Source: an uncultured Mucispirillum sp. (GTDB taxonomy: Bacteria > Chrysiogenota > Deferribacteres > Deferribacterales > Mucispirillaceae). From it: a DNA stretch of 39,323 bases. Location of the stretch: contig CALUWN010000017.1 in the NCBI GenBank assembly GCA_944324495.1, forward strand, positions 1-39,323, written 5' to 3'. Position 1 is the first letter of the stretch; the number at the start of each line of letters is the position of its first letter. Of this stretch, positions 517-36,776 are shown one piece after another. A program made the translations under genes and the position numbers. Under the pieces are notes generated by a model. The model worked only from the letters and a program-made list of their open reading frames with translations, did not search any database and was not told where the DNA came from.

Positions 517-637
517 CTTTTGTGAAATATATGCTAATAAGTATATATTTATTATATAGATTAAAGTTTTTGGTTACAATGTGTTTAGATGTGTATTGTA
601 CCATTTTTTGATGTTTTATAATTTAAAAGGAGCATTT

Positions 638-3600
638 ATGTTTAAAAGAGGCTATGTCTTTATTTTTTATTTTATTTTAATGTTATTTCCTCTTTTATTC
701 GCTGCATGTTCTACAGACAGTAATAGTAGCTCTGTGGGTACAATCTATGAAGATTCTGACCCTAATGTGGTAATTACTGGGATAAGCCTTCCGGGTAACT
801 ATATTGAGCTTACAAAATCACAAGATGCTGTTTTATATTATGATATTAGTGCTGTTGCAGAACCTGCTAATGCAGTGAATAGGAAATTATTGTATTCATC
901 CAGCAACCCTGAAATTGCTTCTATTGATGAAAAAGGGATTTTAACCATTACTGGTTTAGGTGAATTTTCTGTAGAAGTAAAATCGGCTGCAAATTTAAGT
1001 ATTTGGCAGAAAATTGATTTTTATGTTGCAGAAAAAATATTAACAGATGTTAATGTTGATAGTATCCCATTATCTTTATTTGGTGATTATTCTATAAGCC
1101 AATATGGTGTTAATAAAACTCCTGATACAAATATTTCAGGCAGTCTTTCTATTAATGCTAATAAATCAAACAGTAATGTTGTTACTTTAGGTTTGGTTTT
1201 TAATGGTGCTGTGTTTGATTTAGCTTTATCAGATGAAAGTTTTACTACCCTTTCTTATGAGAATATTGCATTAAAAATCAAAGAGCAGTTGAAGATTGTA
1301 AACCATACTAATAGTGATGCAGATATAATCATATCATTAAGTGGGGCAGATTTTCCTTCGCTTGTAGAAAGTAATGTAATTGGTGATGATGAAGTTTTAC
1401 AATTATCTCTTAAAAAATTAAATGATATTAATGTGGGACAGGATGTTGAATCAATGCCTATACTTACTACTGAAGTTACGCTGGCAGACAGCAAGGAAGT
1501 AGACAGGAAAGATGTTCCAGAATTTATGATAGAGCCAACTATTAAGCCTAGCAATGCAACAGATAAAAGTGTTAAATATACTTCATCAGATGATACAATT
1601 GCAACAGTTAATGAAATTGGTTATGTTACTTTACATAAGGCAGGTAATGTGAAGATTACTGCTGTATCTAACGCCAATGATAAAGCAAGTGGTGTAATGA
1701 ATGTAACAGTAACAGACAGCACTATTCCTGTTACCCATATTGTTAGGAACAGCGAAGTAAACCAAGTATCAGTTGGTGGCACTATTGACTTATCTGGCAC
1801 AGCTATGCCAGACACTGCAACACACAGGTCTATAACATATGTTTCATTAAACCCTGAGATTGCTTCTATTAATAATACAACAGGTATATTAACAGCTAAT
1901 AGAAAAGGCACTGCAAAAATTTATGCCATAACAGATGCTGGTAATTATAAAGAAGAATATACCATAACAGTTGATGCGTTTGCATTTCCAGTATCAGCTA
2001 TTATGAATATTCCATCTATACTGAATATAAGCATAAAAGATGAGCCTTATACAATAAACCCACAAGCTTTTCCAGACTATGCTTTTGATAAAAATTTAAC
2101 ATATACTATTACTTCAGGCAGTGATATTATCACTTTTGATGAAACAACTAAAACTATAAAAGGTTTACAAGAAGGCACTGCTGTATTAACAGTTGCTTCA
2201 GCAAGTGATGCTACAGTAAAAAAAGCAATACAAGTAAATGTAAGGGCAGAAATAGAAGCAATTGAAGTTTCACAGATAAATATAAATACTCCTCCTGCAA
2301 ACTTGTATATTAACCACACTACATTTGATTTAACAGCAACAGTTAATGAAGATGCCAATGTAAATACTGATTTGTTTATAGAATCATCTGATAACAATAT
2401 TGTTGGTGCATACCCTGTAGTTGGAGAAAAAAACAAATGGCAGTTAATGCCTGTTACAGAAGGTACTGCCGAAATAAAAGTTTATTCTTCAAGTGGTGTT
2501 GAGCAAAAGTTTAATATATCAGTGCATAAGGTAATGAATACTAAAGGTTATTACAGGTTAAATAAAGTGGATTATTCTTATAACGGAATTAATCGCACAT
2601 TTTACCCTAATGGTGAAAATGGAAATGATAACCTGCAAGGTGAATTTGGTATAAATGTTGATGATGCAAAAATACTTCTCCATGGCAGGCTGCAATTTAC
2701 ACCACAAAATCCACTGCAACAGTCTTCATATACATTTAATAACTGGCGGTTTTTATATATAAGTAAAGAAATTGCACTAGACAGTAATGATGTATATGCA
2801 AAACAAATTAAGCAGGGCTATGCAAATGAAGGTATTAATATAACAAGCGAAAAAACTATTGAATATACATATACTGAAAATGGTTTTCAAGCTCATTTAT
2901 ACCTTGAAAAAGTATCTGATGTATATACAGTAATTGAAGATAAAACTATATATATGACAGATATAGATGTGGTAAACGACCCACACAGTTTAGAAGGCTA
3001 CTATGAAATGACATGGTTTTATGGTAACTCCGTTAATAATAAATGGCTTGAAAGATACCCTGCCATATATTCATCATCACAAGATGATATGCCAACACAA
3101 AGTGATATAGGTATAACTTATCATAAAGACTGCCCAAATATTGGTGGCTGGGCTGCCTGCTTCTCTGGTGGAGGTGGAGAAAATGGTTCTGTTACCAACT
3201 ATACAGGTGCTTTTGCTATAAAAGTGGATGGCACAGGTGAAAATGCACAAATTAGCTTAATTACAAAAGTTCAAATGCAGGGCCATCAAAACTTTAATTT
3301 GCAATCATGGATGAAATATATCCATAGCAGGTTTGATGGGCTTAATATAGCACAAAATAAGTCATTTAATAATGGCTTTAGTTTAATTGATAAACAATTA
3401 AAAGCAAGCATAAATAGTAATAGTGGAAATGAGGGTTATCAGGGAGCATATTTAGCATACAGGCTTTTAAATGGCAATAATATGCAGTTTGAAATGCAGT
3501 TTTTATCAGATTATAAGTTTATGTATCGTGCTGTAAAAGTAAGTGATAGGTATATAGATTTGCCTACAGCAAAATATGTAGATGGTGATGTTTCTGATAG

Positions 3601-3679
3601 AATGCCGCCTGAAAAACCATCTCAAGTTGAGATTAAGCCTATTACAGAAGTAACAGGTAGTGCATCAAATATTTATTAA
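638..3679 (+). CDS. Large Big_2 (bacterial Ig-like) domain lipoprotein
   Basis: The 1013-residue protein begins MFKRGYVFIF with a hydrophobic segment and the lipobox LFAAC followed by Ser, so it should be lipidated and anchored in a membrane, probably facing the periplasm or surface. I chose ATG 638 because AAAAGGAG lies just upstream; ATG 581 in the same frame lacks a ribosome site and would bury the signal peptide. The first ~600 residues hold several Big_2-type repeats, each with a pattern like YSSSNPEIASIDEKGILT followed by a G-x-x-x-I/V strand, including a recurring V-x-x-I element. From about residue 635, and again from about residue 784, comes a different domain starting G-Y-Y-x-(L/M) that also recurs in the next gene. 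Big_2 domains usually serve adhesion or cell-surface display; the specific ligand is unknown. It is transcribed ahead of a related lipoprotein gene 66 bp downstream. Confidence 0.85.
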   Translation: MFKRGYVFIFYFILMLFPLLFAACSTDSNSSSVGTIYEDSDPNVVITGISLPGNYIELTKSQDAVLYYDISAVAEPANAVNRKLLYSSSNPEIASIDEKGILTITGLGEFSVEVKSAANLSIWQKIDFYVAEKILTDVNVDSIPLSLFGDYSISQYGVNKTPDTNISGSLSINANKSNSNVVTLGLVFNGAVFDLALSDESFTTLSYENIALKIKEQLKIVNHTNSDADIIISLSGADFPSLVESNVIGDDEVLQLSLKKLNDINVGQDVESMPILTTEVTLADSKEVDRKDVPEFMIEPTIKPSNATDKSVKYTSSDDTIATVNEIGYVTLHKAGNVKITAVSNANDKASGVMNVTVTDSTIPVTHIVRNSEVNQVSVGGTIDLSGTAMPDTATHRSITYVSLNPEIASINNTTGILTANRKGTAKIYAITDAGNYKEEYTITVDAFAFPVSAIMNIPSILNISIKDEPYTINPQAFPDYAFDKNLTYTITSGSDIITFDETTKTIKGLQEGTAVLTVASASDATVKKAIQVNVRAEIEAIEVSQININTPPANLYINHTTFDLTATVNEDANVNTDLFIESSDNNIVGAYPVVGEKNKWQLMPVTEGTAEIKVYSSSGVEQKFNISVHKVMNTKGYYRLNKVDYSYNGINRTFYPNGENGNDNLQGEFGINVDDAKILLHGRLQFTPQNPLQQSSYTFNNWRFLYISKEIALDSNDVYAKQIKQGYANEGINITSEKTIEYTYTENGFQAHLYLEKVSDVYTVIEDKTIYMTDIDVVNDPHSLEGYYEMTWFYGNSVNNKWLERYPAIYSSSQDDMPTQSDIGITYHKDCPNIGGWAACFSGGGGENGSVTNYTGAFAIKVDGTGENAQISLITKVQMQGHQNFNLQSWMKYIHSRFDGLNIAQNKSFNNGFSLIDKQLKASINSNSGNEGYQGAYLAYRLLNGNNMQFEMQFLSDYKFMYRAVKVSDRYIDLPTAKYVDGDVSDRMPPEKPSQVEIKPITEVTGSASNIY

Positions 3680-3719: not shown

Positions 3720-3745
3720 GGTTGTTTTTATTTTGGAGAAATTTT

Positions 3746-6544
3746 ATGAAAAAAATAAGTAATGTATATAAAGCAATACTTATATGTGTTTTAATGTTAT
3801 CTTTAGCATGCTCTAAAGAAGAAAATAGTGCAGGTGGTGTTAATGTAGTTAAAAACCCACCAAAGGACCCAACAAGTATTGTAACTCAATACAGCTATAT
3901 ACCTTTAGAAAGCAGTAAAACCTATAATCTAAATGCGGCTGTAATACCACTAGAAAAAGCACTGGAGCCTCTTGAGTATTCATCTAATAATAACAATGTG
4001 GCAGGGGTTGACAGCACAGGCAAAATTACAACTTATAATAATGGGGTTGCTACAATAAAAGTTTCCCTTAAAAATGATAAAAATATATATAAAAATATTA
4101 TAATTAATTCTTATAATAAAGCAGATGCTGCAAATAATTCAAAAGTACGTGCAGTATATGTTAATAAAACGTATATATCATTAGATGAAAATAAGAATGA
4201 TGCATATACAATAGATGCAAGCATAAGGCCTCTTGATGCAGAAGATGAGCTTATATATATTTCAACAGATTCAAATGTGGCAACTGTAACAGACAAGGGT
4301 GTTGTTTCATCAAAAAAAGCAGGTAATGCTGCAATTATAATATATGCAAAAAATAACCCTGCAAAATATGCTCAGCTTGCTGTGGAAGTAAAAGCAAAGT
4401 CATCATCTAATAGTGGTGGCTCATCATTTACTCCGCCAGCAGGGATTGCACCAATTGATTTAAATGCAGACCCATTTTCATTAATTGCAAAATATCAGGT
4501 ATTAGATTACAGTATAAATGGTGGGGAAGCAACTTCTGCTGGTGTTGATAGTAATTTACGAGTTAATGTTAACTTAGGTGAGCTTAGTGCAGGTATTGTT
4601 AAAATTTTGATGTATGTAAAATTAAACGGAAAAGAAGTACGCCTCATACAGCAAAAAAATATGAACGACTATGGCAGTATACCAGACATATTTACATCTC
4701 TTGGTGCAAAAATCACAGGAGATTATACTATGGAATTTACATTAGACCCTGTAAATTACAGCGAACTTGCAAAACAAGGGCTTGTAAATCAAGGTGAAAC
4801 TTTAGTTTTAAATATTGGTAAATTAGAAAACCTTGTGCCAGCTGGTGGTTTAGGCAGTGATATTGTTTTTGATGAAAGCACTGTGCCTGTAGAAAGTGGA
4901 AATGGGCAGGCAGGAGACTCAAATGGTGGAGACAGCCAAACTGACAGCAGTGTTACAAAAGTAATATTAGATAAATATAAATATACGCCATATGCAGTAA
5001 ATGAGAAGTTTAAAATTACAGCATCTGTAGAACCATCTACTGCGGCAGATAAAACTATAACTTGGAAAAGTAGTGATAATAATACAGCTACCGTTACACA
5101 AAATGGAGAAGTAACTGTTTTAAAAAATGGTAAAGCTACTATAACAGCCACTGCCTCAAACGGAGTAAGTGCATCATTAAATATTATACCTGTTACTACA
5201 CCACAAGATTTTATGCTGGAAGTTGATAAGCAGGATTTAATATTAGGTTTAATAGAAGAATTTCAAATAAAGCCTATTCCTTACCCATTTATTATCAGTG
5301 TTGAAGATACAGATGTAACATACAGAGTAGCAGATGACAGCATTGCAACAGTAACAGATACTGGGCTTGTGCGTGCTGTCTCAGAGGGTGAAACTATAGT
5401 TTATGTAACAATTGCAGGGGTAGAAAGGCAGTGTTATATAAATGTACTTCCAAAATCAGCAGCCAATGTACCTGTGGAACGTATTATATTAACAGAAGAA
5501 AGTGGGCTTTATGATTTAGTAACAGGTTCTTTTAGAATATCTGCCACAGTAGAGCCATCAACAGCAGGTGATAAACGTTTAAAATACCAAGTTACAAACC
5601 CTGAAATATGCCAGGTAAATGATACAGGGCTTGTAACATTTAAAAAACCGGGTGAAACTACAATTATTGTAAGTGCTTATAATAATAGTGAAGTGCAGGC
5701 AGTATATTCTTTAAAAATACAATCATTACCAACAAAAATAGCTTTTGAAAAGATTGATATTGGTATTATAGTTGGTGAAGAAAGTACACTTTTACCTGTT
5801 TTAGAAGGCTTACAGCCATCTAGCAGAATTATATATTCATCTGATAATCCTGCAATAGCCAGTGTTGATGAATCAACTGGAAAAGTTACTGGTCATAATA
5901 TTGGTACAACAACCATAAAAGCAGTCACTGAAAATGATTTAGAAGCCACATATGATGTGCATGTATATACACCATTAAATGCTGATGATGTATCATCACT
6001 TCAAGGCACATATCAAATAATAGACTTTGAACAGTCAAATGGTACATTAGATGTAAGTACAACGGCTAAATATGGTAAGGTAGAACGCATGGTTGGTGAA
6101 ATGACTATTGAAGTAAATAATAATACTGTAACAATTAAAAGTAAAATCCAAATGGATAGTAGTGCTATGAATACTTTTGGTGGTGTATTAGGGCAAGGTA
6201 AGGAAGAAGCAAGAAAAGGTCAATTTCAATATACAGAGTATTCACCAGCAGTATATAATAAAAATGGTTTTGGAACAGCAGGCAAAACATCAGCTCAAGT
6301 AACATTTGATAATGGTAATTTAAAACTTTACCAAACTTGGAAAGAACTTGGTATTGCAACGGTAAATGTTAATACTTGGATAAAGAAAAAATCAAATGAT
6401 ATAAAAGATTTACAACCTAATAAATTTCATTTTTACTATAGTGATATAAATGGTACTAAAAAGGCAAATGCTGTGGCTCATCACCCAGATATTTTACCAC
6501 CAGATAATGAGCCTTATTACACATATGGGCGTATAAGTCAATAA
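3746..6544 (+). CDS. Second Big_2 Ig-like domain lipoprotein
   Basis: The 932-residue protein starts MKKISNVYKAILICV and has the lipobox LSLAC followed by Ser, so it is predicted to be a lipoprotein. ATG 3746 is preferred because TTGGAG sits 8-12 bp upstream; a TTG at 3722 in frame has no ribosome site. Big_2-like repeats occur near residues 30-120, 130-220, 410-490, 500-570, 580-660 and 665-745, with signatures such as WKSSDNNTATVTQNGEVTV and YSSDNPAIASVDESTGKVTG. Between them (from about residue 244) and at the C-terminus (from about residue 751) is the same non-Ig domain seen twice in the upstream protein, opening with (G/K)-x-Y-x-(I/V)-x-(D/x)-(F/Y). A Ser/Gly/Asp-rich linker precedes the second block of Ig repeats. 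Same strand and architecture as its neighbour, so likely a duplicated pair working at the same surface. Confidence 0.83.
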   Translation: MKKISNVYKAILICVLMLSLACSKEENSAGGVNVVKNPPKDPTSIVTQYSYIPLESSKTYNLNAAVIPLEKALEPLEYSSNNNNVAGVDSTGKITTYNNGVATIKVSLKNDKNIYKNIIINSYNKADAANNSKVRAVYVNKTYISLDENKNDAYTIDASIRPLDAEDELIYISTDSNVATVTDKGVVSSKKAGNAAIIIYAKNNPAKYAQLAVEVKAKSSSNSGGSSFTPPAGIAPIDLNADPFSLIAKYQVLDYSINGGEATSAGVDSNLRVNVNLGELSAGIVKILMYVKLNGKEVRLIQQKNMNDYGSIPDIFTSLGAKITGDYTMEFTLDPVNYSELAKQGLVNQGETLVLNIGKLENLVPAGGLGSDIVFDESTVPVESGNGQAGDSNGGDSQTDSSVTKVILDKYKYTPYAVNEKFKITASVEPSTAADKTITWKSSDNNTATVTQNGEVTVLKNGKATITATASNGVSASLNIIPVTTPQDFMLEVDKQDLILGLIEEFQIKPIPYPFIISVEDTDVTYRVADDSIATVTDTGLVRAVSEGETIVYVTIAGVERQCYINVLPKSAANVPVERIILTEESGLYDLVTGSFRISATVEPSTAGDKRLKYQVTNPEICQVNDTGLVTFKKPGETTIIVSAYNNSEVQAVYSLKIQSLPTKIAFEKIDIGIIVGEESTLLPVLEGLQPSSRIIYSSDNPAIASVDESTGKVTGHNIGTTTIKAVTENDLEATYDVHVYTPLNADDVSSLQGTYQIIDFEQSNGTLDVSTTAKYGKVERMVGEMTIEVNNNTVTIKSKIQMDSSAMNTFGGVLGQGKEEARKGQFQYTEYSPAVYNKNGFGTAGKTSAQVTFDNGNLKLYQTWKELGIATVNVNTWIKKKSNDIKDLQPNKFHFYYSDINGTKKANAVAHHPDILPPDNEPYYTYGRISQ

Positions 6545-6592: not shown

Positions 6593-7156
6593 TTATATTT
6601 TCTCTGGATAATCAACAAAATCAGGAAAATATTCTTGAAGTGTAATATCTCTTAAATCTTGAATGTATTTTAAAAGTTTTAAAAATTCATCATCACTTAA
6701 TGTGGTATTTAAGCCCAATAATTTTTCCTGCTCATGACGCTGGATTTTCCATATTTCTTCATTTATTAAATTATCCCGCTTTTGCCTGTGGTAGTTTTCT
6801 TTTTCCTGCCTTTGCATAATTTCTAGTTTTTCACATTCTGCCATTTCCACCAATTGATTATTTTCTGTTTTATAGTATGGTGGCATTTCTTCTATACCTG
6901 CTATCACTTTTTCAACATAAGCCATTTCTATTAACATATTATTTTCAAGCTTAAAGCCTGTAGGTATATCTATTAAGCCTAATTGCATAAGCTCTATATC
7001 ACTTTTTCTACTCCAGTTATCATTATAAAATGCAATATTTTCACCAGCTCTTACTTCGTGATTTTCTGGTAATACTACAATTTTTTCATTTTCTTCCACA
7101 TCTCCGCAATATATTGCTTCTATTATATTATTATTAATAGTCATATATTCTGCCAT
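6593..7156 (-). CDS. Phage tail-fibre assembly (chaperone) type protein
   Basis: This 187-residue protein has no signal peptide. Its last 25 residues contain LRDITLQEYFPDF followed by DYPEK, matching the L-R-D-x-x-x-Q-x-x-F-P-x-x-x-x-x-P ending typical of tail-fibre assembly chaperones in the Phage_tail_APC-like group. Residues ~65-115 hold two imperfect repeats of the form F/Y-K-x-E-N-N-x-L-(I/V)-E-M-A. A charged Glu/Lys/Gln-rich helix (about 105-145) precedes the terminal motif. The gene follows the fibre gene 12 bp downstream in the same direction, the usual place for its chaperone, which assists folding or trimerisation of the fibre tip. Function is inferred from the C-terminal motif plus context. 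Confidence 0.68.
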   Translation of the reverse strand: MAEYMTINNNIIEAIYCGDVEENEKIVVLPENHEVRAGENIAFYNDNWSRKSDIELMQLGLIDIPTGFKLENNMLIEMAYVEKVIAGIEEMPPYYKTENNQLVEMAECEKLEIMQRQEKENYHRQKRDNLINEEIWKIQRHEQEKLLGLNTTLSDDEFLKLLKYIQDLRDITLQEYFPDFVDYPEKI

Positions 7157-7168
7157 AATATTCTCCTT

Positions 7169-9664
7169 TTATGATATTTTTTTCCAAATTCTTATTGCAC
7201 TATTATAAGGTGTAACATGGGTGGAAGCACCATATATTGAGTTATTTGGCACAAAATAAGGAAAAGGTGATTGACTAAAACTAGTATTTCCTGTTCCAAT
7301 AGCAACAGCAGAAGTTCCATTATATCCTTGTGTTGATGCCATCCCACCTAAACCTTTATTTGCAGATGTTAATTTTTCACCTTTTGGTAGAACTTTATTT
7401 TGACCTTGTACAGCTCTATCAGTTACTATGTTAAATGTTGGCAAGCCTTCATTTTGTTTACTGCCAAAGCTGGCACTATTCCCACCAACTGCCCTAAAAA
7501 ATTCCCCTGCATAAGTGGAGCTTATATCCTGCCATTTGCCTGTTGTATTAAAAAGCACATCTGGTGTAGACTGCCCGCGAAGTTGAATATATATAAACCC
7601 AGTAGGAAGCGATGCTTTTAATATATTATTAAGTGAAGAAAGTGATAATTTTTTCACGTTGCCACCAGAATAAATATATAAAAATTCGCTGTCAGCCATA
7701 GTGGTGGCTTCTGCTGCATCTTTTAATATATTATTTGCTGCCCCTTGAAAATTATCAGAACCTGTGCCGCCTTTATTAACTGATAAAATATCTTTTAATT
7801 TTTCATCGTTTATTGATAATTCATTTAAAAGAGCAAAACTTCCAAGAATAACAGATAAATTATCTGCCATTATTTTGCCTTCACTGTTTATGATTTTTAC
7901 CCAGTAATCAGGTGATGAGACAGGGTCATATATTTTTGAAAGTTCTGCCCCATTATCCTGCAAACAGTAGTATAAACAGCTATCACTTCCTAATATTAAA
8001 GCACCTTGCGTGTAGTTTTGGCTATCCACCCATTTATATGTTTTGCCATGTTCTAAAAGGGATGTTATAATATTTGCAAATAAATCATTTTTATGAACTT
8101 TTCTTATGCTTGTTTCATTATTCATTAAAATATGGCTGTTTTCTAAAAATGTGCTTTCTTCATTAATTTCTATATCTTTTTCTGAAATTATTACTTTTTC
8201 CCACATTTGCCAGTTATTATTATATTCTCTTTTACAGCCTGTATTAAAATTATAATCAGTACCTGCAAACTGATATATTTTTTCTTCATTTTTTTGCACC
8301 AGCAGGTATATAACATCACTTTCAAATGGTGCATTTGTAAGTTTCTTTTCTATAATATAAATACCTGCTGTTTTTATATTATCAAAGTTTTCAATACTGC
8401 TGTCTTGAGAAATATTTGTAATTTTAATCTGCCTTGTATCCATACTTGTACATTCTATTAATAAATCATCAGAATATACAGGGTATTTGCCATTTTCTTT
8501 TCCTGTTCTATATTTGAGATAGTCCTTTAAAGTATAAGGGTTAATAGATTTATTAACATTTTCATCACTTATTACTTCTTCAAGTGAGGCAAACATAATA
8601 CCAGCAAGCCCACCATTTGATGATTTTGCAGCGTATAAGTTATCCTTATTTTCTGATATGGAAAAGGCAGTAAAAAAGTAATCAGTACGCAAAAGATTAG
8701 CCCATGAGCCTTCAGGGCACATGGTTTCTATCCAAGTTATACCGTCATAGCTTGCCATTGTAGTGCCTTGTAAAGATACAAGTACAAAAACATCTGCTCC
8801 AAATGAAATATCAGAAAATACATCATCTTTAGGCATTGTAACCCTTTGCCATACTGCTTTATGTTCTAATATATCTTTTTCAAGACATATGCTTATTTTA
8901 TTACAGTCAATGGCACATACTACAAATTTTCCTTTACCATAAGTAATTGAAGCACCTTGAGAAAATGGCAGGTTAAATGAGTGCCAGTATGCACCAAAAT
9001 CTGTAGAATATATAAGGCTGTTACTTTCATTACTGCTTAAAGCTATGATTATGTTATTTACATATAATATTTTTGTAAAAGGGCTTTCGCTGTATTCTGC
9101 AATTTTAGTGAAATTATTAAACTTATCCATTGTGGCAAATATTTTACCACAGGCAGTACCTAATAAAAATGTGCCTTTATTATAAGCGATACAAGTAAAA
9201 TCATAGTTTTCATAAGTTATCTCTTTATAGCTTTGCCCCATATCTTCACTTATATATATTTTACCAGCAGATGATGATATTGCAAAAATATTATCTCCAA
9301 AAGCAATACCAGTAATATTATCACAAACTTTATACTCTTTAAAACTTTTGCAAAAATCTAAAGATACAGCAGTGTTACCGTCACTTGTTGCAGCTATAAT
9401 AGTGTTATTACCATAAGCAGAAGCACACCAAAGCCCATAAATCATAGGCACAGCGTCCCACGGAGCATATTTTACTTCCATAGCTTTTTTATTTAGTGCA
9501 TCACTTATCCAAGATATATCTATCTGCTTATTAAAATCATCTGGTTTTTTTTCTAATATATCCTGCAGGGAAAGTTTGCCAAGTTCTGCTACATATACAG
9601 GGCTTGTTCTATTTTCTGCCTGCTTATTAGATACTGTAACATTTACATATGCTGTGCTATCCAT
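7169..9664 (-). CDS. Phage-type tail fibre with Asp-box propeller and collar-like tip
   Basis: The 831-residue protein begins with about 60 residues likely for attachment. Residues ~75-345 look like a BNR/sialidase-type beta-propeller, with Asp-box patterns SLDFCKSF (101-108), SEDMGQSY (139-146), STDFGAYW (220-227) and later SYDGITW. A middle part carries the tail-fibre pattern I-x-x-F-D-N-I-K-T-A-G-I-Y-I-I, then N-N-x-W-x-x-W. The C-terminus has PTGFIYIQLRGQSTP, a W-Q-D-I stretch, an F-F-R-A-V-G-G turn and the ending TPYNSAIRIWKK, resembling collar/fibre tips that contact receptors. It overlaps the upstream gene by 8 bp, with the start inside AAATGGATAG, suggesting coupled translation. Likely role: receptor-binding fibre of a phage or tail-like particle. 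No baseplate, sheath or capsid gene is nearby. Confidence 0.78.
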   Translation of the reverse strand: MDSTAYVNVTVSNKQAENRTSPVYVAELGKLSLQDILEKKPDDFNKQIDISWISDALNKKAMEVKYAPWDAVPMIYGLWCASAYGNNTIIAATSDGNTAVSLDFCKSFKEYKVCDNITGIAFGDNIFAISSSAGKIYISEDMGQSYKEITYENYDFTCIAYNKGTFLLGTACGKIFATMDKFNNFTKIAEYSESPFTKILYVNNIIIALSSNESNSLIYSTDFGAYWHSFNLPFSQGASITYGKGKFVVCAIDCNKISICLEKDILEHKAVWQRVTMPKDDVFSDISFGADVFVLVSLQGTTMASYDGITWIETMCPEGSWANLLRTDYFFTAFSISENKDNLYAAKSSNGGLAGIMFASLEEVISDENVNKSINPYTLKDYLKYRTGKENGKYPVYSDDLLIECTSMDTRQIKITNISQDSSIENFDNIKTAGIYIIEKKLTNAPFESDVIYLLVQKNEEKIYQFAGTDYNFNTGCKREYNNNWQMWEKVIISEKDIEINEESTFLENSHILMNNETSIRKVHKNDLFANIITSLLEHGKTYKWVDSQNYTQGALILGSDSCLYYCLQDNGAELSKIYDPVSSPDYWVKIINSEGKIMADNLSVILGSFALLNELSINDEKLKDILSVNKGGTGSDNFQGAANNILKDAAEATTMADSEFLYIYSGGNVKKLSLSSLNNILKASLPTGFIYIQLRGQSTPDVLFNTTGKWQDISSTYAGEFFRAVGGNSASFGSKQNEGLPTFNIVTDRAVQGQNKVLPKGEKLTSANKGLGGMASTQGYNGTSAVAIGTGNTSFSQSPFPYFVPNNSIYGASTHVTPYNSAIRIWKKIS

Positions 9665-10364
9665 TTTTCACCTCTTTTTTTCTTAAAAGAGCATAGTGGC
9701 GGGCAGAATATAGGTTATTTTCTACAGGTATATTTATTGGGTTAGTTGCCCATTTTTTGCTGTTTTCTGCATATTTTTGGCATATTTCAGCATTATTTTT
9801 TATTTCTGCCATATATTTTTCATATATTTTTTCTAAACTAAGCCTCATATTAAAATATTTTGAAGCCATTTTATTTTCTGCCTGTTCTAATATATCAGAT
9901 GTTTTAACAGAAAGTGTGTTAATATTTTTTTCAATATTTTTGATATTTTCTTGAATATTTTTTTCTTTTTCATCTATTTTAGTTTCATATTCTTTTAAAT
10001 TTTCAAAAATATTTTCCATATTTTCTAAAGTTTTATCATATTTTTCTTTTACTTCATTTATTGCTTTTATTTTTTCATCAATTTGGTTGATTTTTAAAAT
10101 AGTTTCTTCTAATTTTTCCTGCATAGAAAACAGGTCTTGAGTTTTATTTATGATTTCATCTTTTAAATCACCTATAATCATTTGCATATTTGATGAAATA
10201 TTTTGCATTTCTTCTATATTAAAAATATTTGCTATTTCAGTAAAATTACTGTTTTGAAAAAGGTGTGATTTATTTTCATCTACCATAAAAAAAGGCGATA
10301 TAGTTTTGATTTTTCCATTATCATTAATAGATATTTTTTGGCTGTTCCAAGAGTATATTTTCAT
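9657..10364 (-). CDS. Coiled-coil phage tail-fibre protein
   Basis: The 235-residue protein opens MKIYSWNSQKISINDNGK and then forms a long Lys/Glu/Ile/Asn-rich coiled coil from about residue 55 to 200. Near the end come S-K-K-W-A-T-N-P and, at about 219-226, YSARHYAL, the pattern found in many tail-fibre proteins (typically S-x-x-W-A-x-x-x ... YSAKYYA). That makes a structural fibre segment or fibre adaptor the best reading. It is the first gene of the three-gene cassette; its TAG stop overlaps the start of the next gene. GGAGA lies 5 bp before ATG 10364. It could alternatively be an unrelated filament-like coiled coil, but the terminal motif and the neighbours argue against this. Confidence 0.65.
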   Translation of the reverse strand: MKIYSWNSQKISINDNGKIKTISPFFMVDENKSHLFQNSNFTEIANIFNIEEMQNISSNMQMIIGDLKDEIINKTQDLFSMQEKLEETILKINQIDEKIKAINEVKEKYDKTLENMENIFENLKEYETKIDEKEKNIQENIKNIEKNINTLSVKTSDILEQAENKMASKYFNMRLSLEKIYEKYMAEIKNNAEICQKYAENSKKWATNPINIPVENNLYSARHYALLRKKEVKNG

Positions 10365-32460: not shown

Positions 32461-32832
32461 ATGGTAAGGCGCTTTAAAAGCACACTTTTAATTGAATTTG
32501 CATTATTGGTTTTAGGCTATGCAGCATTTTTATTGTTTGTAGATTTTGCATATGCCAACGCTTTTTTAGGTGGTTTTATTATAATTTGTATTGATTTATT
32601 ATTTTTAGCTCGCTATCTAAATAATGCATTTAGGAATTCGTCAGCAGCTGGCTTTTTAATGCAAAGTATATTTAGGTGGTTTTTTATTGCTGTTTGTATA
32701 TATATAGCTCTTGTTAAGCTTGATATGTACAAATGGTCATTTGCTGTGGGTATAATACTTCCATTTTTTGGGGTTTTTATTACTGGAATATATCAAATCT
32801 TTCGGGGGAAAGAAGATGGAACATCCTCTTAA
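32461..32832 (+). CDS. atpI: ATP synthase I-type protein
   Basis: A 123-residue protein with four hydrophobic segments, the size and layout of the ATP synthase I family. R-x-(Y/F)-(L)-x-N followed by a loop and then R-W-F-F-I-A in the third segment fits the family. It is thought to aid c-ring assembly with AtpZ. GAAAGGG precedes ATG 32461. Its 3' end overlaps the atpB start by 17 bp, an arrangement common for F0 genes. Confidence 0.8.
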   Translation: MVRRFKSTLLIEFALLVLGYAAFLLFVDFAYANAFLGGFIIICIDLLFLARYLNNAFRNSSAAGFLMQSIFRWFFIAVCIYIALVKLDMYKWSFAVGIILPFFGVFITGIYQIFRGKEDGTSS

Positions 32833-33487
32833 TTTAACATCGTTTTTACCAGCTAGTATTCAGCATCATTATTTACATGTTATTATGTTGCTTGTAGCTG
32901 TTTTAATTATTTTCATTATGGGTTTATATGCTCGTACACTGCGTAGCGAAGTGCCAGGCAAAGCACAAAACTTTTTTGAAGTTTTAGTTGGTGGCGTTAG
33001 TAATTTAGCAGTGGATGTTATGGGTAAAGAGGGTAAAGCTTATATACCTGTTGTTTTTGGCATTGGTTTATATGTAGCAGTATCAAACCTTATGGCTTTA
33101 ATTCCGGGTCTTATACCACCAACAAGTAATATGAATACAACAGCAGCACCTGCTATATTTGTATTTTTATTATACAACTTCATCGGTATTAAAAAACACG
33201 GTGCACGTTACATTAAGCACTTTTTAGGACCTTTAGCATGGCTTGCTCCGTTTATGTTAATTATAGAGTTTATAAGCCACTTAGCAAGACCACTTTCTCT
33301 TACAATGCGACTTTTTGGTAACATCGCAGGTGAAGATTTAGTTGTTGTTATATTATTTATGCTTGTACCAATTATAGTACCACTGCCAATGTTTTTCTTA
33401 ATGATATTTACAAGTGTACTGCAAGCATTTGTATTTATGATGTTGACTATGGTGTATATAGCTGGTGCTTTAGAAGAAGCCCACTAA
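32816..33487 (+). CDS. atpB: ATP synthase F0 subunit a
   Basis: A 224-residue membrane subunit that forms the ion half-channels against the c-ring. The essential arginine is Arg165 in SLTMRLFGNIAGEDLV; other marks are the N-terminal H-x-x-x-x-x-L segment and the closing FVFMMLTMVYIAGALEE. ATG 32816 follows GGGGGAAAG; an earlier in-frame ATG at 32768 lies within atpI and lacks a ribosome site. It is followed not by atpE directly but by 960 bp of repeats and a decayed gene. The F1 and b/delta genes are absent from this window, so the operon is split. Confidence 0.97.
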   Translation: MEHPLNLTSFLPASIQHHYLHVIMLLVAVLIIFIMGLYARTLRSEVPGKAQNFFEVLVGGVSNLAVDVMGKEGKAYIPVVFGIGLYVAVSNLMALIPGLIPPTSNMNTTAAPAIFVFLLYNFIGIKKHGARYIKHFLGPLAWLAPFMLIIEFISHLARPLSLTMRLFGNIAGEDLVVVILFMLVPIIVPLPMFFLMIFTSVLQAFVFMMLTMVYIAGALEEAH

Positions 33488-33488
33488 A

Positions 33489-33621
33489 ATTAACTATCTT
33501 TTAATTTTATACTGTGTTGGATAGTTTCAAAACTTGGTCATTTACTACTATGTAAACTCCCTGCGTTTTAAAACTATCCGCCTTGTCTAAAATTAAAATC
33601 TTAGTTAATTTGCGATGTTTG
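33489..33621 (+). repeat. Hairpin cassette 1 after atpB
   Basis: Outer arms 33489-33509 and 33588-33609 and inner arms 33519-33533 and 33565-33579 are near-perfect inverted repeats closing a 31-nt loop (33534-33564) that ends ACTATGTAAACTCCCTGC. After the inner stem comes TGTCTAAA, then AAAATC, then TTAATTTGCGATGTTTG. The loop and the tail recur in cassette 2 at 33950, but the arms do not. It may also serve as the atpB terminator or an mRNA processing site. Confidence 0.75.
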
Positions 33622-33685
33622 GTATAGCGTTTGAAAAATATATGTTATTTTAGTATAATCACTAGCTATATTTATCATTCGTATA

Positions 33686-33776
33686 TAAAGCCAGTTATTG
33701 TGGCTTATTATAAATTTAAAAACTAGCGTTTTATTTACGCTTAAAATATTAATTAATTTTTTTGGAGGACTTTTAA
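33686..33776 (+). promoter_or_regulatory. Duplicated atpE-type leader, copy A
   Basis: This leader matches 34358-34447 closely. It contains a hairpin AAGCCA-gttattg-TGGCTT, then TATAAATTT, then AACTAGCGTTTTATTTACGC (4-bp hairpin AGCG/CGCT), an AT run and TTTGGAGGACTTTT before ATG 33777. It drives a broken reading frame here. Confidence 0.75.
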
Positions 33777-33977
33777 ATGAAAAAAGTTATCGGATTTTTA
33801 TCACTCTTCATTATTATTGGTCTACCAGTATTCTCTTAAGAATCAACTGTAGTTACTGGTAAAGTAATGACTGAAAACTCAACAGCTATGGAAAAAGTTA
33901 TTGATGCTCAGTAAAAAGACCAGAAAGCAACTGTAGAAGTTGCTGCAGAGTTGAAAAGTAAAAGAGCTCAGGTCTAA
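33777..33977 (+). pseudogene. Small secreted-protein gene with two in-frame TAA codons
   Basis: With a perfect GGAGG and the atpE-type leader, the frame starts MKKVIGFLSLFIIIGLPVFS, a good signal peptide, then meets TAA at 33837-33839. The same frame continues with protein-like codons (ESTVVTGKVMTENSTAMEKV), meets TAA again at 33912-33914, continues KDQKATVEVAAELKSKRAQV and ends at TAA 33975-33977. Both inner stops are one C-to-T change from CAA (Gln). The 66-codon frame is otherwise intact, with no frameshift. It is not subunit c. Most likely a recently inactivated small periplasmic protein; I cannot name the family. Its 3' end forms one arm of hairpin cassette 2. Confidence 0.6.
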
Positions 33978-34054
33978 ACTATTATGTAAACTCCCTTCGC
34001 TCTCTTACTTTTCGACGTGTCTAAAGAAAAAATCCACGCTAATTTGCGGTGTTT
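33950..34054 (+). repeat. Hairpin cassette 2
   Basis: The left arm GTTGAAAAGTAAAAGAGC (33950-33967) is the end of the broken gene; the right arm GCTCTCTTACTTTTCGAC (33999-34016) pairs with it (16 of 18). The loop 33968-33998 is 31 nt and ends ACTATTATGTAAACTCCCTTC, nearly the loop of cassette 1. Downstream come TGTCTAAA, AAAAATC and CTAATTTGCGGTGTTTG, as in cassette 1. Confidence 0.75.
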
Positions 34055-34326
34055 GAATTTATTAAGACTAAACTAATTAAATTTTTATTTTTAATTCCGT
34101 CCGTGGAATTAAAAAAACGCACTCAGTCGCAGTAAATGCTCCCTGAGTTTACTAAAGCAAGCCTATCCATAGGCTTGAGAAGCTAATTTGCGGTGTTTGA
34201 ATTTATTAAGACTAAACTAATTAAATTTTTATTTTTAATTCCGTCCGTGGAATTAAAAAAACGCACTCAGTGGCAGTAAATGCTCCCTAGAGTTTACTAA
34301 AGCAAGCCTATCCATAGGCTTGAGAA
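34038..34326 (+). repeat. 144/145-bp tandem repeat upstream of atpE
   Basis: Two units, 34038-34181 and 34182-34326, differ by one substitution (CAGTCGC/CAGTGGC) and one inserted base (CCCTGAG/CCCTAGAG). A third, partial unit starts at 34327 (GCTAATTTGTGATG). Each unit holds AGTAAA-TGCTCCCTGAG-TTTACT, the hairpin AAGCCTAT-cc-ATAGGCTT, and ATTCC-gtccgt-GGAAT. The GTAAA...CTCCCT core and the TAATTTGCGGTGTTTG tail relate them to the two hairpin cassettes upstream. Confidence 0.9.
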
Positions 34327-34357
34327 GCTAATTTGTGATGTTTTAAATATTAAAAAT

Positions 34358-34447
34358 ATAAAGGCTTTCATAGGGCCTTATATAAATTTGATAACTAGCG
34401 TTTTATTTACGCTTAAAATATTTTTTATTTTTTTGGAGGACTTTTCA
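34358..34447 (+). promoter_or_regulatory. atpE leader, copy B
   Basis: Hairpin AAGGCT-ttcatag-GGCCTT, TATAAATTT, AACTAGCGTTTTATTTACGC, an AT run and TTTGGAGGACTTTTC before ATG 34448. The strong GGAGG suits the high c-subunit output needed for a multimeric ring. Compared with copy A, the first stem has changed on both sides while keeping its pairing. Confidence 0.7.
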
Positions 34448-34750
34448 ATGAAAAAAGTTATCTTAACTACTTTAATTGCATTAATTGCAGTTCCTGCTTT
34501 TGCAGCTACAAATGCTGATGCTACTTCTGCTTGGGCATTATTTGTTGGTGCTGGTCTTGCTATCGGTCTTGCTGGTCTTGGTGCTGGTGTTGGTATGGGT
34601 AGTGCTATCAGAGGCGGTCTTGAAGGTATTTCTCGTAACCCTGGCGTAGCTGGTAAAATCTTCACTTACTTACTTGTTGGTGTAGCTCTTATTGAATCTA
34701 TCGCTATTTACGGTTTAGTTGTATCTCTTATTCTTCTTTTCGTTAAATAA
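34448..34750 (+). CDS. atpE: ATP synthase F0 subunit c
   Basis: A 100-residue proteolipid with an N-terminal leader MKKVILTTLIALIAVPAFA, which looks like a cleavable signal and makes it longer than the usual ~80 residues. Helix 1 carries the Gly-rich GLAGLGAGVGMG, the loop is RNPG, and helix 2 holds the ion-binding Glu83 in ALIESIAIYGLVV. The E-S and Y positions echo Na+-type rings, but the helix-1 Gln that ligates sodium in Ilyobacter (GVGQG) is Met here (GVGMG), so protons are the likelier ion. ATG 34448 follows TTTGGAGGA. It is separated from atpB by an unusual 960-bp repeat region. Confidence 0.97.
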   Translation: MKKVILTTLIALIAVPAFAATNADATSAWALFVGAGLAIGLAGLGAGVGMGSAIRGGLEGISRNPGVAGKIFTYLLVGVALIESIAIYGLVVSLILLFVK

Positions 34751-34900: not shown

Positions 34901-35398
34901 ATGAAAAAAATATTAGTTATTGTATTTACATTAATCGCAGTAAATGCTTTTGCTTTCGATGTAGAAAGAGTAAAAAAAATCTCCTGCGATGCTCCTGTAA
35001 AAACTACTGAAAACGATACTGAAATAACTACTTGGACTTGTACTTTTGCAGAAGGCACTCCACTTAGTTTTGCATATAAGGAAATTATAAATGACCTTTC
35101 AAAAGATATTGAGAAAAAAATATTAATGCCAAAAAGCAAAACTCAATTTAAACAAAATGTACAAAATGCATTAAATCAGAAAAATGCTAAACATAAAATC
35201 ACTCAAATTGGTATAAAAGGTATGATATATCTTGAGCCAACATATGATAATAACAAGAAAGCTGAAATATCTACTAATCTTGGGGTGGAAAACGAAAACC
35301 ACAGCTTTAATCTAGTGCAGGAAGATAATGTTAAGCTTACTTATGTTTTTTCTAAAGGTGATTCTCAAATAGAAAAAACTCAAAGCTACGAAGAATAA
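34901..35398 (+). CDS. Small secreted protein, paralogue of the gene at 36303
   Basis: A 165-residue protein with signal peptide MKKILVIVFTLIAVNAFA, then FDVERVKKISCD. AGAGGG precedes ATG 34901. Mature residues contain two Cys (KKISCDAP and TTWTCTFAEG) spaced for a disulphide, followed by helices (YKEIINDLSKDIEKKIL) and a beta-rich C-terminus. It shares AFAFDVE, the Cys pair, the helix with (Y)-K-(E/D)-(I/V)-I-x-(D/N)-(L/I), and the strand order with the 157-residue protein at 36303. No known family recognised. Probably periplasmic; it has its own terminator. Confidence 0.78.
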   Translation: MKKILVIVFTLIAVNAFAFDVERVKKISCDAPVKTTENDTEITTWTCTFAEGTPLSFAYKEIINDLSKDIEKKILMPKSKTQFKQNVQNALNQKNAKHKITQIGIKGMIYLEPTYDNNKKAEISTNLGVENENHSFNLVQEDNVKLTYVFSKGDSQIEKTQSYEE

Positions 35399-36302: not shown

Positions 36303-36776
36303 ATGAGAAAAATATTTTTATTATTATTCATTTTTATTGCATTTAATGCTTTTGCATTTGATGTGGAAAACTTAAATGGTGCATCTTGCACAAAAGTTTC
36401 AGATGCGTCAGAAGATGGATTTGACCCTGCATTTTGGTATGATTATGAATGCAGCTTTAATGGGATTACTATCCAAGATGTATATAAAGATGTTATACAA
36501 AATATTGCAGATGCATCATCTAAAATATTATCAAATGAAAGCGATTTTTCACAGTCAGAATTTAATAAAAAAGTCAACGAATTTAAAAATCATAAAAAAG
36601 ATTTTTCATATGTAAAATCTTATGAAAGAAATGGATTTAGGATTTATGGTAAGTTTACTAATGACCAAATAACCATAGCAACAAACGAAGGTCAAGGTGA
36701 AGAATCTTTTGAATATACCATAAATAAATCTGGTAATAGTATATTTTTAACTTTTAAATACGATAGTGGTTTTTAA
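36303..36776 (+). CDS. Small secreted protein, paralogue of the gene at 34901
   Basis: A 157-residue protein with signal peptide MRKIFLLLFIFIAFNAFA followed by FDVENLNGASC. Two Cys (GASCTKV and YECSFNG) match the spacing pattern of the paralogue at 34901, and the helix I-Q-D-V-Y-K-D-V-I-Q-N-I matches its Y-K-E-I-I-N-D-L. The C-terminus is a run of beta strands with N-(D/x)-Q-I-x-I-A-T-N-E-G. No recognised family. The two paralogues bracket the DUF1269-type gene, and each of the three genes has its own terminator. The ribosome site is duplicated upstream. Confidence 0.78.
   Translation: MRKIFLLLFIFIAFNAFAFDVENLNGASCTKVSDASEDGFDPAFWYDYECSFNGITIQDVYKDVIQNIADASSKILSNESDFSQSEFNKKVNEFKNHKKDFSYVKSYERNGFRIYGKFTNDQITIATNEGQGEESFEYTINKSGNSIFLTFKYDSGF

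Follow-up and report, generated by a model that had tools for sequence, protein, structure and literature searches.

A genus-wide array of probable ERIC-family hairpin elements between the atpB and atpE genes of Mucispirillum, with a possible influence on the expression of both genes

Organization of the atpB-atpE intergenic region

The window analyzed here is a stretch of 39,323 nucleotides of an uncultured Mucispirillum sp. (GenBank assembly GCA_944324495.1, genome G000; contig CALUWN010000017.1, referred to as C17), which contains the genes coding for the F0 subunits a and c. The stop codon of atpB (TAA, 33485-33487) and the start codon of atpE (ATG at 34448) are 960 nt apart. A first-pass annotation had described this gap as an island composed of two hairpin cassettes, a broken secreted-protein gene, a duplicated leader, and a 144/145-bp tandem repeat, and all of these parts were retrieved. 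They are listed below with the flanking genes; bit scores refer to R1, a covariance model built from a structural alignment of fifteen Mucispirillum copies of the hairpin element.

32816..33487, + strand: atpB, F0 subunit a (PF00119, E 4.8e-52)
33487..33611, + strand: probable ERIC-family unit 1, full-length, beginning at the atpB stop codon in the orientation of transcription (R1, 134.8 bits, E 1.4e-29 in the genome scan; the unit is itself in the R1 seed alignment)
33631..33659, + strand: sigma70-like promoter match TTGAAA-17-TATAAT (11/12; consensus match only)
33680..33776, + strand: duplicate atpE leader with stem-loops and Shine-Dalgarno sequence, a copy of 34363-34447
33777..33974, + strand: broken reading frame that has a signal-peptide-like start, is interrupted by two TAA stops, and merges with unit 2
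33944..34049, + strand: probable ERIC-family unit 2, without its 5' end (R1, 42.0 bits, model positions 24-102)
34038..34343, + strand: tandem repeat, period 144/145 bp, 2.1 copies in the assembly, 97% matches
34363..34447, + strand: atpE leader with a variable upper hairpin, an invariant AGCGT...ACGCT stem, and the Shine-Dalgarno sequence GGAGG (aligned over eight species)
34448..34750, + strand: atpE, F0 subunit c (PF00137, E 1.2e-18)

The hairpin of unit 1 folded with a z-score of -8.3, none of 200 dinucleotide shuffles being equally stable, and that of the 5'-truncated unit 2, which is of the same unit type as the first unit of the congener G001, was weaker (z = -4.1). The folding energy of the atpE leader by itself was unremarkable (z = -1.2). 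In the 144/145-bp repeat, a second hairpin module is joined to tail sequences from two types of unit, and the two 144-bp copies of the repeat are not identical to each other; 29 nt of the second module recur exactly on another contig of this genome (G000:C7:86731-86759). For the broken reading frame at 33777, no parent was found in its own genome and none below E 0.05 in the other genomes searched. Unit 2 and the tandem repeats can be classed as modules that are either damaged or foreign. As judged from the sequence, the island was most likely rebuilt in this genome, involving a duplication of the atpE leader, partial units, and the second hairpin module; duplication and unequal recombination between elements would explain the leader copy, the broken frame, and the 144/145-bp repeat.

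The second hairpin module (ATTCC-GTCC-GTGGAAT, together with TTACTAAAGCAAGCCTATCCATAGGCTTG) was seen at several element loci (window 34038-34343, G000:C7:86590-86765, and G000:C18:60-140) and may represent another repeat family. Elsewhere in the window, two small secreted proteins with similar N-termini and no Pfam family are encoded downstream of atpE (34901-35398 and 36303-36776), the first of which has a weak paralogue adjoining it in the congeners G001 and G006. Furthermore, three genes on the minus strand (6593-10364) resemble, by eye, genes for phage tail-fibre or tail-assembly proteins, and two large lipoprotein-like proteins with repeated Ig-like domains, also recognized by eye, are encoded in tandem (581-3679 and 3722-6544).

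Structure of the hairpin element

The element is a long imperfect hairpin of about 125 nt, most copies measuring 120 to 130 nt. Its arms vary in sequence yet stay complementary. Indeed, over the fifteen aligned copies 93.2% of the cells were paired, compensatory changes occurred in 25 of the 46 pairs, and the covariation score was 0.385, compared with 0.117 in shuffles; in a slid control, in which the partner was moved by one to three positions, at most 50% of the cells were paired. The internal loops with their mismatches are constant, as is the apical stem (TCA-TTTAC-loop-GTAAA-CTC), and so is a part further out in which ACTGYGTTG faces CGCCTTGT. Since G.T and A.C mismatches were about equally frequent (45 versus 38), selection on the RNA of one strand is not visible, and an RNA-only selection of that kind finds no support. 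Hairpin-templated repair or gene conversion could keep the arms paired without selection.

Exchange between copies is apparent from chimeric units: the outer arms of the first unit in the congener G003 derive from two unit types. Similarly, two orthologous copies (L113 and L120) have their outer part in common and differ in their inner hairpin.

Distribution in Mucispirillum

A scan with R1 retrieved 15 copies in the genome under study (2.43 Mb) and 4 to 12 copies in each of nine congeners, dispersed at unrelated places and in both orientations. Eight of these 15 copies lie within a Mu-like prophage on contig C12 (G000:C12:27758-48914; L102 and L103), between its genes, which encode a phage transposase, a DNA transposition protein, a terminase, a head maturation protease, a major head protein, a tail sheath protein, a tape measure protein, and an endolysin. 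Related prophages in congeners (L115, L125, L128, and L139) carry copies with other arms after some of the same genes. Further copies adjoin 5S rRNA or tRNA genes, the RNA genes being recognized by eye. At two duplicated places in the genome of G007 (G007:C1, near 1464 kb, L132, and near 1998 kb, L133), two tandem elements lie antisense beside a tRNA-like gene, and these places are probably inside rRNA operons.

Outside the atp locus, a same-strand stop codon was found within 30 nt of the 5' edge for 29 of the 60 full-length copies and an opposite-strand stop near the 3' edge for two of the 60, with orthologous loci counted separately and genes taken from simple open-reading-frame calls. One locus is filled in G006 and G002 and empty in G008, the sequence around the insertion being rearranged; at another locus, G007 appears to retain a remnant of the element. 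In the G002 copy at the first of these loci, further hairpins occupy the apical loop; such a nesting of other hairpins in an element (G002:C4:5235-5412, L281) suggests an insertion of hairpin into hairpin.

The atpB-atpE region in related genomes

The first-pass annotation had proposed a comparison with related genomes, and the island proved to be conserved between atpB and atpE in all seven congeners in which both genes lie on one contig, among them the single-contig genome of G007. The gaps range from 246 to 893 nt and each contains one to five copies of the element. Including the genome under study, at least one element lies directly at the atpB stop codon in eight of eight Mucispirillum genomes, and among the genomes in which the site was readable no Mucispirillum species without the island was encountered. 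In two sister genera of the family, the gap between atpB and atpE is 30 to 40 nt and contains no element, and R1 had no matches anywhere in five sister-genus genomes. Being present in the congeners and absent from the sister genera, the island is a genus trait with a variable copy number. The sister genera without the island also lack the conserved atpE leader.

Relationship with ERIC elements

Read on the other strand, the core of the Mucispirillum element is GAG-TTTAC-loop-GTAAA-TGA, which we take to be the heart of the ERIC consensus (AGGAGCTTACATAAGTAAGTGACT). When R1, built from Mucispirillum copies only, was applied to 160 kb of E. coli DNA chosen around four ERICs, it returned four matches up to E = 10, corresponding with these four ERICs, each over all 126 model positions and on the same strand (21.5-27.3 bits, E 0.0009-0.025). 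In another ERIC-bearing stretch of 844 nt, the score was 23.9 bits, compared with at most 5.4 bits elsewhere in it. These scores are modest because only the loops and the architecture are common, the arms sharing no sequence; the core common to both elements is TCA[CT]TTAC-loop-GTAA[AG]CTC. In addition, three of the four E. coli ERICs, those after narK, ybhI, and cusC, begin 2 to 7 nt behind the respective stop codon, lie between co-directed genes, and have the same orientation, which is the placement of unit 1 at atpB.

The ends of the elements agree with this assignment. TA was enriched at the termini of the Mucispirillum copies (16/58 at the 5' end, 22/58 at the 3' end, and 8/58 at both, with a background of 10.7%), although most single copies lack TA on at least one side. 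Such an enrichment would be predicted from ERIC, whose termini are TA and whose insertion duplicates this dinucleotide (PMC2759123).

ERIC (also IRU or RU-1; 127 bp) and the element of about 125 bp described here thus have in common one long imperfect hairpin, in which the apical stem and the mismatched loops correspond position by position from end to end, TA-rich ends, a location in intergenic sites near the ends of coding genes, beginning directly at a stop codon or shortly behind it and oriented like the gene, and tens of copies or fewer per genome. The Mucispirillum elements differ in that their arms are entirely different and much more variable between copies, and in that they occur in Deferribacterota, in tandem arrays, and in multiple copies in a Mu-like prophage. 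To our knowledge, no mobilizing enzyme is known for ERIC. It is concluded, from a test in one direction (the Mucispirillum model on E. coli DNA), that the cassettes can be regarded as members of the ERIC family in a broad sense. Because a model without any ERIC in it picked out exactly the four ERICs in 160 kb of E. coli DNA, it is highly probable that the island is a short, genus-wide, copy-number-variable array of non-autonomous ERIC-family miniature elements, being imperfect palindromes placed in the orientation of transcription after the atpB stop codon.

According to a 2024 review of MITEs, ERIC ranges over the Enterobacteriaceae and Vibrionaceae (PMC10969869), and a systematic stem-loop survey listed it for E. 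coli, V. cholerae, and Y. pestis (PMC2267715). No report of ERIC from Deferribacterota or Bacteroidota was found in the part of the literature covered. The element itself appears to be a diverged representative of a type already described. Novel, as far as can be seen, are its occurrence in this phylum, its fixed tandem array between atpB and atpE, and its presence in multiple copies within a Mu-like prophage.

Related elements in other phyla

A strict pattern of the core retrieved elements in Pseudomonas, Halomonas, Kangiella, Bacteroidales, Marinilabilia, Oligoflexia, and others (L160-L239 and L327-L381). A looser pattern occurred 2 to 50 times in ten of those genomes, compared with no occurrence of a reversed control; it did not occur in two sister-genus genomes and matched once in one Flavobacterium genome whose strict-pattern match looked coding. 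R1 matched many such loci, including Kangiella copies missed by the pattern, and in the Kangiella genome it found about 20 places with scores of up to 75 bits. A BLAST search with the Pseudomonas-type core returned 15 plasmid records and nothing in phages or E. coli, and when unit 1 was compared with phages, the matches were weak and partial, none having an E-value below 0.03. Conserved coding sequence, rather than an element, seems to underlie the Flavobacterium matches and 17 of the 18 viral-contig matches obtained with the first pattern, which were set aside.

Two of these loci were of a particular kind. An Oligoflexia genome contains a tandem array with a period of about 110 bp (G069:C86:28023-28264). 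A Kangiella copy (L364; G064:C8:52293-52415) has about 20 nt of arm sequence per side in common with a copy in the Mucispirillum prophage (G000:C12:44497), an identity that exceeds the sharing of loops only and may be due to horizontal transfer or to chance in AT-rich arms.

A more far-reaching interpretation holds that ERIC is part of a superfamily with fixed loops and free arms that extends over several phyla (Deferribacterota, Bacteroidota, Bdellovibrionota, and several Pseudomonadota) and spread partly by Mu-like phages, and that the Mucispirillum array was recruited at atpB and atpE, where it would set the ratio of a to c message through translation-dependent cleavage by RNase E/G. Taken together, these propositions are speculative and rather improbable.

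Possible influence on the expression of atpB and atpE

About ten subunits c are needed per one subunit a. The first-pass annotation had suggested that structured RNA in the island could set this stoichiometry, which is plausible by analogy, because the cassettes belong to the ERIC family and ERICs at the 3' ends of Yersinia genes have been reported to alter the levels of the flanking mRNAs. As summarized in two papers, the Yersinia elements are co-transcribed with their neighbours, the upstream transcripts being less stable than the downstream ones and the orientation being crucial (PMC2229807), an effect that has been ascribed to the unmasking of an RNase E site within the 3' inverted repeat (PMC10969869). 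If this behaviour holds in Mucispirillum, less atpB than atpE message would be expected, which would fit about ten copies of c per a.

A corresponding mechanism may be proposed as follows. The array would be co-transcribed with the atp genes, and ribosomes finishing atpB beside the first hairpin would cause the element to expose an entry site for RNase E/G. The atpB segment would then decay faster than the downstream segment, at the start of which lie a conserved stem-loop leader and a strong Shine-Dalgarno sequence, so that c message would come to exceed a message in the operon. A gene of the RNase E/G family is present in ten of ten genomes, and the conserved atpE leader would suit an independently stable downstream message. 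An effect of the opposite sign on the atpB and atpE messages is also possible. As a whole, the mechanism, comprising co-transcription, RNase E/G entry at the first element, and faster decay of atpB, is tentative and falls somewhat short of being probable. The ERIC-family array combined with its proposed effect is the best explanation overall, and a moderately probable one.

That the array persists neutrally is almost as probable as an effect on expression. According to this explanation, which is a serious contender without being the favoured one, the array is selfish DNA that was inserted after atpB in the ancestor of the genus and later expanded and recombined, the insertion being tolerated because no coding sequence was harmed. 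It agrees with the variation in copy number at the site, from one to five between species, with the chimeric units, with the coming and going of elements at other loci and their residence in a prophage, and with the absence of visible strand-specific selection. It agrees less well with the finding that each of the eight genomes has at least one element immediately at the atpB stop, and with the compensatory changes that keep the arms paired.

A rather unlikely explanation is that atpE expression is set by a promoter and leader of its own, the hairpins being a spacer or idle. The sigma70-like match (11/12) lies before the leader copy in this genome and directly before atpE in G001, and a leader with an invariant stem and a Shine-Dalgarno sequence occurs in eight genomes. 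However, the match in this genome precedes the duplicated leader and the broken gene, 790 nt from atpE, no such match exists at that place in G007, and the region contains no more promoter-like matches than shuffled sequences do.

Comparison with other element classes

The ERIC-family assignment was weighed against other kinds of structured DNA. An Rfam search gave nothing credible at the locus, no family reaching its gathering score, and at the related loci in other phyla it returned tRNAs only; on sight, no motif matched an integron attC site, a group II intron or retron RNA, or a riboswitch. The PeSL of T4-type phages, which are reportedly mobile regulatory cassettes carrying early promoters, are likewise repeated stem-loops in phage intergenic gaps, whereas the prophage copies of Mucispirillum are of the ERIC type and lie in a Mu-like phage. 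The Correia or NEMIS elements of Neisseria, compared by description only, resemble the Mucispirillum element in being MITE-like, with terminal TA and RNA that is processed by an RNase (PMC2229807, PMC10969869), but theirs is a processing by RNase III and they possess promoters of their own.

It is very improbable that the cassettes represent a non-mobile regulatory RNA dedicated to the atp operon. Their stable, covarying structure and conserved position would suit such an RNA, but 4 to 15 copies per genome occur at unrelated places, in both orientations, in prophage and adjacent to rRNA genes, and related elements exist in other phyla. Hence, of the structured cassettes and signs of recombination noted in the first pass, both are supported, the latter by the chimeric units, the duplicated leader, and the unequal copy number between species, whereas the dispersed copies contradict a dedicated atp RNA. 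Similarly, its alternative of a recombination scar applies to the mosaic but not to the core, which is an array of a known mobile-element type in all readable congeners.

Equally improbable are REP or REPIN elements moved by an IS200-like Y1 (RAYT) transposase. These, too, are interspersed extragenic hairpins that at times form tandem clusters (PMC3116915), and a Y1 transposase of IS200 size is encoded in six of the ten genomes. Yet the single-contig genome of G007 has ten copies of the element and no Y1_Tnp match, so that this transposase is not required, and the four Y1 genes inspected have no adjoining core copy, except for one isolated word match of 7-9 nt. Moreover, the architecture is unlike that of two inverted REPs (PMC3116915), no pair of inverted REP palindromes tagged by a tetranucleotide being seen on inspection of the aligned copies. 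An assembly artefact is the least probable of all, since, although assemblies are indeed interrupted by such elements, of which two are located at the ends of contigs (C13 and C18), the gaps of seven other genomes, one of them a single contig, are built from the same elements in the same architecture with differing numbers of units, and the two 144-bp copies differ.

Implications

ERIC elements underlie a standard typing method. If the matching elements in Deferribacterota, Bacteroidota, and Bdellovibrionota and in a Mu-like prophage are true members, the view of the origin and spread of ERIC would change. The constant loops and free arms of the element also provide a diagnostic, and its many natural copies could be used to search for whatever binds or moves ERIC. 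Finally, its fixed position between a gene whose product is needed once and a gene whose product is needed about ten times makes the atp locus of Mucispirillum a natural experiment as to whether such hairpins tune an operon.
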